NCBI RefSeq assembly: GCF_000969885.1
Contig: NZ_CP009501.1
Location: 124,001-188,000, forward strand
Source of the DNA: Methanosarcina thermophila TM-1
GTDB taxonomy: Archaea > Halobacteriota > Methanosarcinia > Methanosarcinales > Methanosarcinaceae
Direction: 5' to 3'
Length of the DNA: 64,000 nt
Below the pieces are notes generated by a model, which saw only the letters and a list, made by a program, of their open reading frames with translations, did no database searches and had not been told where the DNA came from. Positions 8,043 through 56,995 of the stretch are shown here, one piece after another (within the stretch, counting starts at the first letter, position 1; each line of letters opens with the position of its first letter). The translations under genes were made by a program, and so were the position numbers.

Positions 8043-10502
8043 ATGGGGAAGAGACTGGTGAATATTAACAAAAGATCATATTCGATAGCTTTAGCCTCAA
8101 TAATCTTATTTTTTCTGTTTTCTATTTTATTTCCAACCGTAGCGTCAGCGGCGCAGATAATAAAAATTGGCAATGGGACTGATCCTGCCGTTCATGGGAA
8201 CAAAGTGGTATGGACAGACAACGGTGTTATTCATGTTTATGACCTGACCGCCAGAACAGACACTGCAGTTGACTCTTCTGCAGCATCTCATCCAGCTATC
8301 TATGGAAATAAAATAGTGTGGCATGATATGAGTAGCGGGACACCAAAGCTTGCGATATACGATATTCCTACAGCTACAAAAGATTACATAACTCAGAATG
8401 TAGACCAATATAGCAAACCTGCTATTTACGGCGACAGAATCGTGTGGAGTGCGGATTACAACGAGACAAGCTACAATTATAATGTATACATGTGGGATAT
8501 GTCAACTTCTACACTGACTAAAATTGCGGAGGGCAATAGTCCTGATATATACGAGACCAAGATAGCGTATGGTTATGATGGTGACTATGGGCGAAACATT
8601 GTTGTTTATGATGTTAATACTAAGGAGACCATAAATGTACATTATTCCGATCAGGTATTCAATCCGCATATATATGGTAATAAAGTGATGTGGTCAGACT
8701 TCTTTAACAGAGATGGATACATCCAGATGTATGACCTTGAGACTAAAGAAATTATAGACGTTACCAGTGACCATACAGGTAATACTTTATACGGATCTGA
8801 TTATGCTGATGCTGGAGCTGACACTGGCACCCACCCCAATATCCATGGTGACAAAATCGTATATTCAAAATCCGGTGATGACCAGTTTGGTTATGCGGGT
8901 GTATATATTTATGACATTCCTTCTGCAAAAAGCACTCCGGTCTATATTTATCCAAAAGGGACTCACACAACACCTGATATTTACAATAATACGATTGTGT
9001 GGGGGATAGACAGTAACTATGGTGCAATTAATGATACTGGCATCTATATCTATGATCTTTCTGTCACAAACACCTTGCCACCTGTAGCTGAATTTGCTGC
9101 AAACACAACCTATGGAGCTGCACCTCTAGTAGTGTTATTCATCGATACCAGCACTGGCGGAGTACCGACCTCTTGGATTTGGGATTTTGGGGACGAGATT
9201 TACTCAAAACATGCTATGAATGCAACCCACACGTTTACAAAACCAGGGAACTATACAATCAGTCTGACTGTGGGAAATGAAGCAGGTAATAGTAAAGTAA
9301 TGAAACCAAATTACATTGTCGTTACTAATCCATTTCCAGTTGCAAACTTCAGTATCAACGCTACCCATGGTTATCCTCCTCTCTCAATTCAGTTTACTGA
9401 CCTTTCACAAAATGCAACTGGATGGTGCTGGGATTTCGGAGATGGGAATAATTCTACACAAAGGAACCCAGTTCATGAATACACAGATCCAGGAATCTAT
9501 TCAGTTAATCTGACAGCAAGCAACGAAAATGGTACAGATTCAAAGTTAACTACAATAACAGTAATGCAGCCATTCGGTGTAGGTCCATTTGCTTATATTG
9601 CGAACTCCGGCGACAATACTGTATCAGTAATTGACACGGCTACTAATAACGTTACAGCCATAATTCCTGTAGGAAACTATACCATGGGAGTTGCAGTCAG
9701 CCCGGATGGAAAAAAGGTATATGTGACTAACTTTTTCGACAGTACTATATCTGTAATTGACGCAGCAAAAAATAAAGTTACAGCCACAATTCCTGTAGGA
9801 AACGCTCCTCGCGGAGTTGCAATAAGTCCGGATGGGAAAAAAGTATATGTTCCACATACCGATGTGGGAGCTCCCAGCAACAATATGATTTTTATTATAG
9901 ACACGGCTACCAACGAGGTTGAAGCCACAGTGCTTGTAGGCGTAGTTCCTTTTGGAGTTGCGGTCACACCGGATGGGAAAAAGGTGTATGTGACTAATCT
10001 CGATGATAAAACTGTCTCGGTAATTGACACGGCAACAAACACTGTTATAGCTACAATTCCTGTAGGAAACAATCCTCGTGGAGTTGCAATAAGTCCAGAT
10101 GGGAAAAAGGTATATGTAGCGTGCGACGAAGGAAGCAATAACGGATATATCTATGTAATTGACGCAGTAAAAAACAAGGTTACAGCCAGAGTACCTGTAG
10201 GGGAATTTCCTTCTGAAGTCGCTGTCACACTGGATGGAAAGAGTGTATATGTGACTAATGGTCTTAGTAACACTATATCTGTAATTGATGCAACAAAAAA
10301 CAAAGTTACAGCCACAATTCCTGTAGGAAATAGTCCGAGTGGAGTTGCTGTTACACCGGATGGATCATGGGTATATGTTACTAACTACGCCAGCAATAAT
10401 GTTTCTGTAATTGACACATCAACAAACAAGGTTACAGCAACTATGAATGTAGGACGTAGTCCTAATTCCTTTGGGCAGTTCATAGGTTCTCTCCAAGCGT
10501 AA
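8043..10502 (+). CDS. secreted beta-propeller/PKD/YVTN surface protein
   Basis: The 819-aa product starts with a signal peptide ending near TVASA. An N-terminal region of TolB-like repeats (repeated IYGNKIVW/IHGDKIVY motifs, about 40-350) follows. Next come two PKD domains (WDFG motifs near 380 and 465). Seven or so ~42-aa YVTN repeats (VSPDGKKVYVTN) complete it from about 515 to the end. Such proteins coat Methanosarcina cells. The ORF ends at a TAA (10500-10502) directly followed, in the same frame, by codons resembling another PKD domain. The original protein was therefore probably longer. GTG at 8058, preceded by GGGGAAGAG, is an alternative start. Confidence 0.85.
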   Translation: MGKRLVNINKRSYSIALASIILFFLFSILFPTVASAAQIIKIGNGTDPAVHGNKVVWTDNGVIHVYDLTARTDTAVDSSAASHPAIYGNKIVWHDMSSGTPKLAIYDIPTATKDYITQNVDQYSKPAIYGDRIVWSADYNETSYNYNVYMWDMSTSTLTKIAEGNSPDIYETKIAYGYDGDYGRNIVVYDVNTKETINVHYSDQVFNPHIYGNKVMWSDFFNRDGYIQMYDLETKEIIDVTSDHTGNTLYGSDYADAGADTGTHPNIHGDKIVYSKSGDDQFGYAGVYIYDIPSAKSTPVYIYPKGTHTTPDIYNNTIVWGIDSNYGAINDTGIYIYDLSVTNTLPPVAEFAANTTYGAAPLVVLFIDTSTGGVPTSWIWDFGDEIYSKHAMNATHTFTKPGNYTISLTVGNEAGNSKVMKPNYIVVTNPFPVANFSINATHGYPPLSIQFTDLSQNATGWCWDFGDGNNSTQRNPVHEYTDPGIYSVNLTASNENGTDSKLTTITVMQPFGVGPFAYIANSGDNTVSVIDTATNNVTAIIPVGNYTMGVAVSPDGKKVYVTNFFDSTISVIDAAKNKVTATIPVGNAPRGVAISPDGKKVYVPHTDVGAPSNNMIFIIDTATNEVEATVLVGVVPFGVAVTPDGKKVYVTNLDDKTVSVIDTATNTVIATIPVGNNPRGVAISPDGKKVYVACDEGSNNGYIYVIDAVKNKVTARVPVGEFPSEVAVTLDGKSVYVTNGLSNTISVIDATKNKVTATIPVGNSPSGVAVTPDGSWVYVTNYASNNVSVIDTSTNKVTATMNVGRSPNSFGQFIGSLQA

Positions 10503-11025
10503 CCAATATTTGCTGTTGCATATTTTATTACCGGCGTTACCAGAGGTTATGCTCCTCCGGCTGTCCAGTTTATAGGCTATCGGAAAATGTAGTGTCAAAG
10601 AGCTGGGATTTCAGTAATGATGGAATTACTGACTCTGCAAAAATGAATCCAGTTTATGAGTTCGTAACTCAAGGAAATTATACTGTTAATCTGACAGTAA
10701 AAAATGTGAACGGTGCAAATTCAAAACTTGCTACAATAAATGTACTGACAAAAAGCAACTCTAGCGGTGGAAACAGCGGTAGAAACTTTGGTGGAAGCAG
10801 TGGAAACAGTGAAAACAGTGGAAACAATCACAAAAGTGGCGGCATTGGAGGAGGTTCTCCTGAAACTGTAAGGAATGTCCAGGTCAAGGAACTTTTGCAG
10901 GCATTTATTACAGGTGGAAAGCCTGTAAAATTTGATTTCACAAAGAATGCAACCTATGTTGTGTATGGATTGCTTGCAGACTTCTGTATAAAAAAGGTAA
11001 AATCCAAAGTTAGTGTAAAAAAGAG
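10503..11025 (+). pseudogene. decayed C-terminus of the surface protein (PKD plus PGF-pre-PGF)
   Basis: After the TAA the same frame reads GYAPPAVQF, the start of a PKD domain. A frameshift near 10570 moves the reading to another frame, which continues with SWDFSNDG, GNYTVNLTV and, after a Ser/Gly/Asn-rich linker, KELLQAFITGGKPVKFDFT. That last segment resembles the PGF-pre-PGF domain near the C-terminus of Methanosarcina surface proteins. The coding sequence is cut at the tRNA-Leu fragment starting at 11026. A single C-to-T change (CAA to TAA) would explain the premature stop. Confidence 0.65.
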
Positions 11026-11076
11026 TGCGACGGGTGGGATTCGAACGCACGAACTCCTACGAGACTAGACCCTGAA
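11026..11076 (-). repeat. tRNA-Leu(CAG) 3'-fragment, candidate attachment-site copy
   Basis: These 51 bp match the 3' 51 bases of the intact tRNA-Leu at 15057-15107, in the same orientation, with two mismatches (11031 and 11037). The match runs from the discriminator base through the T arm and variable arm into the anticodon, then stops. A truncated tRNA copy at the far edge of a DNA segment next to the intact gene is the usual footprint of integration into a tRNA gene. Confidence 0.8.
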
Positions 11077-11077
11077 A

Positions 11078-11422
11078 CCAGCAATAATACCTGATAAAAA
11101 TTTGAGATATGCTCAGGTTGTCAAAAATAAGCAAGGAAAGAAGCTTCAAAAATTAGAAAAAAGGATCATCTTTGGTCAAAATATAGATCAAGATAAAATA
11201 TCAACAAGTTTACTTGAGAGACAGAACCTGACTTTTAGACAGGACTATAATAGGATTTCAAGAAAAACAATAGGATTTTCAAAGGACCTAAAAAGCCTGT
11301 ATAATCAAATGAGGCTTTACTGTACTCATTTTAACGTCTGTAGAGATCATAGAGGATTAACAAAAAAAGGAGAAGGGAATTCTGGAAAAGAAAACATCTG
11401 CATAAGAGTCTGGAATCACTAA
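11078..11422 (+). pseudogene. IS1-like transposase, C-terminal fragment
   Basis: The reading frame is open from the end of the tRNA fragment (codons for PAIIPDKN precede the TTG at 11102). It contains LLERQNLTFRQD, FSKDLKSLYNQ and YCTHFNVCRDHRGL, which resemble the C-terminal catalytic part of IS1-type DDE transposases. The N-terminal half is missing, so the ORF is a fragment cut at the putative island edge. It cannot encode a working transposase. Confidence 0.65.
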
Positions 11423-46818: not shown

Positions 46819-48654
46819 ATGGGAAGAAATTTGCTCTATCTTACACTACTATTATTTGTTTTTTTATTTGCTTCTGTTTCAGTTGCTTCTGCGGCCGATA
46901 TAGTTCTTGACACCGAACATCACCACCTTGGGGATAATTTTAAAGAAGAATTGAACCCTGGTGACCCGGAAGGGCTGGTTTACACAGCTACTTTTACCCT
47001 GGACCCTTCAGTGGATATAGAAAGTGCAGAACTTACAATGACAGGAAAAAGCATTGTTCCGGGGCCGACAAAAGAATTTCTGGATAAGGTATATCTCAAT
47101 GAAATAGAAATCGGAACCCTTAACGACTATGTTCCGGCAGAAACCCCGGATTCTACCTCGGTGAGCATTAAAATTCCGGTTCATCATTCTCTTTTCGATT
47201 CGGGAACCAACATCATAAAAATTAGCGCCGGGAGTAACGCTAACCGCAGTAATTATGATGACTTTGAGTTCTATAATCTTTCACTTCATTTAAGTGAAGT
47301 CGAACCTGTAACTCTGGCTCCGCCTTTAGAAGTCGCCTGGACCTATAAATTTCCGTGGAGATTAATACACGGGGCACCGGAATTCGAAATTCTTGCTGCG
47401 GATGGGGTTCTCTACATTTGCCAGGGTTATTCTGAAACCAGTGTTACAGCGATTAATGCGGAAACAGGTGAGTTACTCTGGGATAAGAATCTTACAGAGC
47501 AGGGTCACCTCGGGTATAAGGATGGGGTTTTAATTGTTTTAAGCTATCCAACTGTTGATGCACTGAATGCAAAGAACGGTGAACTTTTATGGAGTAGAGG
47601 CTATCAGGGTGGTTGGCCGGATATTCCCCTTATTTTTGGGGATACTTTGTTTGTGAGCGAGTATGGTAGCAGGTATGTGACTGCCATTGATATTGGGAGT
47701 AGCGCCCTGAAATGGGATTATGAAATTAATTTAACAGGCTCTAGAAATACTGGTAGTTATTATTTATCAGGTCTCCAGACAAACGGAAATGTTCTCGCAC
47801 TCCGATATAATATATATGATATTCCTTACGAACACGGTTTAATCGCACTCGATATAGATACAGGAAAAGAGGTCTGGAGATATACGGATTTAAGAGAACA
47901 CTCCCCTGATCCTCTCTTCTACAAAGATTTGATCTATATTGGAGGCGAAGAAATTGTTGCGTTATCTGCTAAATCGGGTGAGGAAGTTTGGAAAACAGAT
48001 ACTAACGGATAGGTAATAAGTACTGAAATAAAGGATGGTAAATTAGTTGTTAAGGAGGAATTATCTAACTATTCCCGCAGGTCTGTAGTTTTAGATGTGA
48101 ATACAGGAGAAATTTTGGAAGAGTTCCCCAGTTCGGAACGATATTTCTCGTCGTCCGCGGTTACTGATGAATATGTATATTCCACATCCGGGTGCAAGAT
48201 AAGGGTTTTCGACCCCGTCACAGGGGAACCTGTATGGAGCAGCAGCAGGATAAAAGGTGCTGCACTATCAGAACCAACACTTTACAAAGATAAATTATAT
48301 CTGGTCTCAAGTGACGGAGTATTATATGCCTTTGAGCAGGGGGAAGGAGGATTATTCTTTACCAGAGGCCTCGAGGATTCTGCTATCCTTTACTTGCCCC
48401 CAGTTGCTACTGCTGGAATGCTTTTTCTGCTGCCCTTCCTTCTCAGAAAAAATGAAAACAAAACCCTTGTTCTTGGTTACTGGTTGATAGCTCTTGTGGG
48501 AGTTCTTTTGCTTTCATTTATAGCTATACAGCCATATTTCATTGCATGGGATATATTCGGAATGCTGACTTTTCTGGTCTTATGTGCCCTGGGTGTGATA
48601 TTGCTGTTTGGCATTATATTTCTTGTCTTTGGGCTCCTAAAAAGGAGGAAATAA
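46819..48654 (+). CDS. PQQ-type beta-propeller membrane protein with in-frame UAG
   Basis: ATG 46819, with GAGG 7 bases upstream, starts a signal peptide (LLLFVFLFASVSVASA). A beta-sandwich domain (about 25-160) and PQQ-like propeller repeats follow (AINAETGELLWDKN, ALDIDTGKEVWRY, ALSAKSGEEVWKT). Codon 398 (48010-48012) is TAG. The same frame continues with no other stop through more repeats (VLDVNTGEILEEF, VFDPVTGEPVWSS) and three membrane helices to TAA at 48654. Read through, the product is 611 aa; stopped, it is 397 aa, secreted and unanchored. The UAG may be read as pyrrolysine or be a simple nonsense mutation. Function is unknown. Confidence 0.7.
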
Positions 48655-56719: not shown

Positions 56720-56995
56720 GTGGGTCATTATATTGTAAGGATACACACCGATACATGGGACCGGTTGCGCGATCTTCAAAGCCTGTATGATCTTGATGTC
56801 TTTGGCAAGACGGCAAAACAGCTTGTGGATGGTTCATTTGAGGTCCAGGGAATACTCTCGGAAAAACGAATCAGGATTCTGTCTGAGAAAGGATACCGGA
56901 TAGAGATTCTTAATGACGTTGAAAAGGTAGCAAAAGAAAGGCTGAAGGATGTAGCCAATCCCGGTTCATTGAACGGAGATCAATCAGACAAGTAG
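56720..56995 (+). CDS. stand-alone homologue of the carboxypeptidase N-terminal domain
   Basis: The 91-aa protein (GTG start, GGAAGGA upstream) aligns along its length with the N-terminal region of the preceding M14 enzyme. Shared features are HYIVRIHTDTWDRLRDLQSL against IYSVQITAKTLEELRALDKF, VQGILSEKRI against VPGILTEEQI, and EKVAKERLKDV against SRVAEERVQEV. Pro-domains of M14 enzymes can inhibit or help fold the peptidase, so this may be a free inhibitor or chaperone; that is inference. It ends in TAG immediately followed by TAA. Confidence 0.7.
   Translation: MGHYIVRIHTDTWDRLRDLQSLYDLDVFGKTAKQLVDGSFEVQGILSEKRIRILSEKGYRIEILNDVEKVAKERLKDVANPGSLNGDQSDK

Follow-up and report, generated by a model that had tools for sequence, protein, structure and literature searches.

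The window analysed here, a 64,000-nucleotide stretch of the Methanosarcina thermophila TM-1 genome, contains at positions 46819–48654 of the forward strand (the strand of all features of this gene given below) a frame of 611 codons closed by a terminal TAA. Its translation shows a single internal stop, a TAG at codon 398 (48010–48012), followed by 213 codons of open frame (48013–48654, terminal TAA included) that encode the end of a propeller and three membrane helices; the lone UAG and the length of frame after it are as the original prediction had given them. By its translation, its match to PF13360 and a 94% identical, uninterrupted orthologue in the nearest sister genome, the frame encodes a membrane-anchored beta-propeller protein of the PQQ/BamB-like type. 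PF13360 was matched on both sides of the TAG (E-values of 1.3e-19 before it, 8e-7 after it and 1.7e-30 for the two parts joined), and the homologues are stop-free through this site in our alignment, so that the open frame 3' of the TAG is not there by chance.

Four regions can be distinguished along the protein: a hydrophobic, putative N-terminal signal sequence (MGRNLLYLTLLLFVFLFASVSVASAA; residues 1 to about 26, 46819–46896), assigned from the sequence and from a low-confidence model helix at 2–18; an N-terminal beta-strand domain (residues about 26–160, 46894–47298); the beta-propeller, with a BamB-like fold by Foldseek and Pfam (residues about 170–507, 47326–48339); and three C-terminal helices (516–544, 548–573 and 577–610; 48364–48648), which are hydrophobic in sequence and presumably form a membrane anchor. 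The domain boundaries come from an AlphaFold2 model of modest confidence (mean pLDDT 70, input alignment of 5 sequences), in which the propeller spans residue 398 and this residue starts a predicted strand (398–405). The propeller repeats on both sides of the TAG and the three helices had been anticipated from the sequence, and the Pfam matches and the model bear them out. The top Foldseek match of the model was BamB (8orr, E = 1.3e-19), and the protein has both repeats and fold in common with the BamB/PQQ-like beta-propellers; its score against the BamB equivalog profile, 78.3 bits, is far below the cut-off of 285.2. BamB itself is a lipoprotein of the bacterial outer membrane; the archaeal protein differs from it in having a beta-domain at the N-terminus and three helices at the C-terminus.

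The host genome (G000) is closed, with a single contig of 3,127,379 bases, and is 99.95% complete. It encodes tRNA-Pyl(CUA) together with PylS, PylB, PylC and PylD (four equivalog matches above cut-off) at G000:C1:2366000–2378000, and its MtmB has an in-frame TAG at codon 202; no in-frame stop was found in its Thg1. Across the window, gene order is for the most part shared with the nearest genome (G006; 3,283,688 bases), which we take to be that of M. flavescens and in which the region lies on the opposite strand. Among the conserved open reading frames (ORFs) of 848 kb of G000, 17 of 423 (4%) end in TAG, 218 in TAA and 188 in TGA; the window has 40 conserved ORFs with a length of 120 aa or more, which end in TAA (24), TGA (15) and, for the propeller gene only, TAG. 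The earlier statement that UAG is avoided here thus holds, and the gene that it had described as ending in a TAG followed by TAA fits a 91-aa ORF at 56720–56995. This avoidance is general, and it says nothing on the propeller gene in particular. Back-up stops within 5 codons are not in excess after TAG-ended genes, with 35% versus 34% for TAA and 29% for TGA.

The orthologue in G006 is syntenic and has TGG at the site, the 6 codons before it and the 7 codons after it being identical in the two species. Eleven further copies are readable at this position, and they have TGG (eight copies) or TTT (three). UAG conservation among orthologues was therefore not found at codon 398: TAG occurs only in G000, and 12/12 other readable copies have TGG or TTT. 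Read from this alignment, the TAG is a single-base change from TGG on the branch leading to G000. A CAG-to-TAG change, which the original prediction had proposed as the plain alternative, is ruled out as the origin of the codon, neither CAG nor CAA being present at the site in the relatives.

We found no unusual RNA structure, PYLIS-like or other, 3' of codon 398 (z = +0.36), and Rfam gave no relevant match for the gene; a downstream recoding element is rejected on these grounds, although a PYLIS-like structure would be a help to Pyl insertion and not a requirement. A separate start for the second half appears unlikely: the motif AAGGAGG at about 48052–48058 is not followed by an in-frame start at normal distance, encodes K-E-E and is present in G006 also. 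In a census of mid-gene stops covering sampled stretches of both genomes (848 kb of G000 versus 774 kb of G006), 11 stops lay opposite a sense codon within a conserved frame, namely five TAG, four TAA and two TGA. The TAG share predicted from codon usage and transition bias is 0.35–0.43 (0.40), against an observed 5/11, so that these 11 events, few as they are, show no TAG excess. The gene filter of this census, which asked for 50% or more of the differences to fall at third positions, excluded the propeller gene and was then relaxed; counts were small at both settings.

The propeller gene has matches in 13 of the 31 genomes of the genus and none in the other 18 at an E-value of 1e-20, 7 of the 31 genomes being less than 90% complete; at the family level, with a stricter cut-off, matches were found in 15 of 112 genomes. 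Eleven of the 16 copies in the genus are intact and four are broken besides that of G000: the G001 copy (G001:C1:4037128–4041045) is clearly dead, carrying frameshifts as well as a TAA and, where a tryptophan codon is conserved, a TAG; the G021 copy has an internal deletion and also shows frameshifts and a TAA; the G029 (Methanosarcina spelaei) copy has one frameshift; and the second copy of G010 is a fragment. The gene family is thus dispensable, and the G001 copy implies that a TAG in a member of this family is no proof of pyrrolysine. In the G000 copy, which aligns end to end with its G006 orthologue, no second lesion (frameshift, deletion or further stop) was found.

Comparison with G006 gave a dN/dS of 0.29 upstream of the TAG (17 synonymous and 18 nonsynonymous changes) and of 0.40 downstream (7 synonymous and 9 nonsynonymous), where outgroups assign 4 synonymous and 6 nonsynonymous changes to the G000 branch. 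The ratio of changes on the G000 and G006 branches is 10:2 downstream and 15:17 upstream (Fisher p 0.042, uncorrected and one of several looks), with branches assigned from distant outgroups and with downstream synonymous changes also raised on the G000 branch. This faster change downstream of the TAG in G000 hints at relaxed selection. The divergence downstream may be mostly older than the TAG itself, and the counts fit a gene that is still used as well as one lost recently.

We favor, with a probability of about 75%, a scenario in which a dispensable gene acquired a recent, private and near-neutral TGG-to-TAG change in a Methanosarcina that decodes UAG as pyrrolysine, and in which the new UAG is decoded ambiguously. 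The change would be near neutral because the propeller protein is not needed. Release factor and Pyl-tRNA(Pyl) would compete at codon 398, as they do at ordinary amber codons in M. acetivorans, in which an introduced amber codon showed 20–30% apparent readthrough with Pyl (PMC2933860). The main product would be a 397-residue fragment made of the signal sequence, the beta-domain and an incomplete propeller, without the anchor, and the minority product a full-length anchored protein with pyrrolysine replacing tryptophan. Given that the gene has no cis element, such ambiguous decoding would be the natural expectation, and the sequence shows neither a gene-specific recoding signal nor a dedicated pyrrolysine residue or switch. 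Other UAG interruptions have been put down to probable drift (PMC3639795). As described in PMC2933860 and PMC6471195, Thg1 of M. acetivorans has one in-frame UAG, at which Pyl was physically observed in an active enzyme, and its evolution was considered neutral (Heinemann et al. 2009). The propeller gene resembles Thg1 in that it has one UAG, restricted to a single species, belongs to a Methanosarcina with pyl genes and has no relation to methylamine metabolism; unlike Thg1, it is known from sequence, and its family is dispensable and often broken. Three observations count against the favored scenario: the G000 copy has no further lesion, which would be expected too if readthrough had kept the gene useful; the downstream dN/dS is below 1; and an acyltransferase gene of the same genome, described below, indicates that a non-methylamine UAG can stay strongly constrained.

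Plain inactivation, with too little readthrough to be of consequence and the gene already a young pseudogene, is possible but appears doubtful to us. Repeated decay of the propeller family and the weak sign of faster downstream change in G000 agree with it, whereas measurable amber reading in Methanosarcina (PMC2933860) and the otherwise undamaged frame do not. It differs from ambiguous decoding only in the amount of full-length protein and in whether that amount matters. Of the readings proposed originally, nonsense is the best supported in kind, this being a private single-base change in a decaying family, although it started from TGG. At the other end of the range, it is unlikely that Pyl insertion at codon 398 is frequent enough to maintain a working anchored propeller, with an anchored share that tracks the pyrrolysine supply; if true, the propeller would be a surface protein that depends on Pyl although it has no part in methylamine metabolism. 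An origin of the TAG in a sequencing error, or in a mutation that only the sequenced strain carries, is similarly improbable: TGG and TAG are one base apart and one genome of the species was compared, but this genome is closed and nearly complete and the frame is otherwise without anomaly.

We regard as very improbable that efficient Pyl insertion at codon 398 was selected because the protein needs it or benefits from it. The pyl machinery is complete, so that the original proposal of pyrrolysine retains a plausible core, that is, some insertion, and the downstream frame is open and homologous. On the other hand, the codon is found in no relative, the position is occupied elsewhere by Trp or Phe in a propeller strand that is not a known catalytic site, and most genomes of the genus lack the protein or have it in broken form. 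The methylamine methyltransferases MtmB, MtbB and MttB likewise have an in-frame UAG followed by conserved sequence, but in them it is a codon that different species have in common and that lies in the active site (PMC2933860, PMC8211752), whereas that of the propeller gene is private. Finally, the regulated switch suggested at the outset, with UAG as a stop without methylamines (giving a released half) and as Pyl with methylamines (giving the anchored whole), has a parallel in the bacterium Acetohalobium arabaticum, where UAG reading depends on the carbon source (PMC8211752), and suits the location of the whole anchor 3' of the TAG, but is highly unlikely because the break inside the propeller would leave an incomplete propeller as first half, the UAG is not conserved, and the structure and Rfam results reveal no cis element.

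About 200 kb from the propeller gene, a gene of the acyltransferase-3 family (PF01757; G000:C1:387783–388940) has a TAG at codon 218, and the same TAG, also at codon 218, is present in G006 (G006:C1:193700–194857) and is thus common to both sister species. At this position, which lies in a variable loop, intact relatives carry a sense codon (CAG, GAG, AAG or another); the closest, in G019, has CAG. Between G000 and G006, the dN/dS is 0.19 upstream of the TAG and 0.075 over the 167 codons downstream (24 synonymous and 7 nonsynonymous changes, Fisher p 4e-11). As the TAG is common to the two species, almost all the differences between them should be younger than it, and the strong downstream constraint argues that the 167 codons after the UAG are still translated in some way. 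The simplest explanation would be readthrough with insertion of Pyl; alternatively, a second chain may be initiated separately. Judged by these comparisons of sequence, the acyltransferase gene is a better pyrrolysine candidate than the propeller gene.

Several other genes of the two species are interrupted. A membrane transporter-like gene of G006, presumably a sodium/alanine symporter (G006:C1:about 355448–356236, minus strand), has a private CAG-to-TAG change at codon 263 (TAG at 355450) with 203 open codons after it; its orthologue is at G000:C1:232116 (plus strand, 466 aa). At G006:C1:3218842, a GAA-to-TAG replacement, which involves two base changes, affects codon 166 of a frame that stays open for 77 codons downstream (orthologue at G000:C1:838424, minus strand, 243 aa). 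A second TGG-to-TAG change of G000, in the gene at G000:C1:354484–356166 (plus strand), lies 16 codons short of the end of the 578-aa G006 orthologue and probably just shortens the tail. In the window, a PKD/propeller surface-protein gene (8043–11422) has a decayed tail, made up of a remnant PKD frame, a TAG at 11066–11068 and, after it, a weak match to an IS1 transposase; this gene is degenerate in G006 too.

The propeller gene provides a clean and dateable test case of how cells cope with UAG as both a stop and a pyrrolysine codon in Methanosarcina: since a single base separates it from the gene of the sister species, the amount, the size and the residue of the product are directly comparable. 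The shared and constrained UAG of the acyltransferase gene matters more than that of the propeller gene, and a comparison of sister genomes for TAGs constrained on both sides is a simple route to further cases. The acyltransferase gene suggests that a UAG outside methylamine metabolism can stay in use through the whole divergence of two species.
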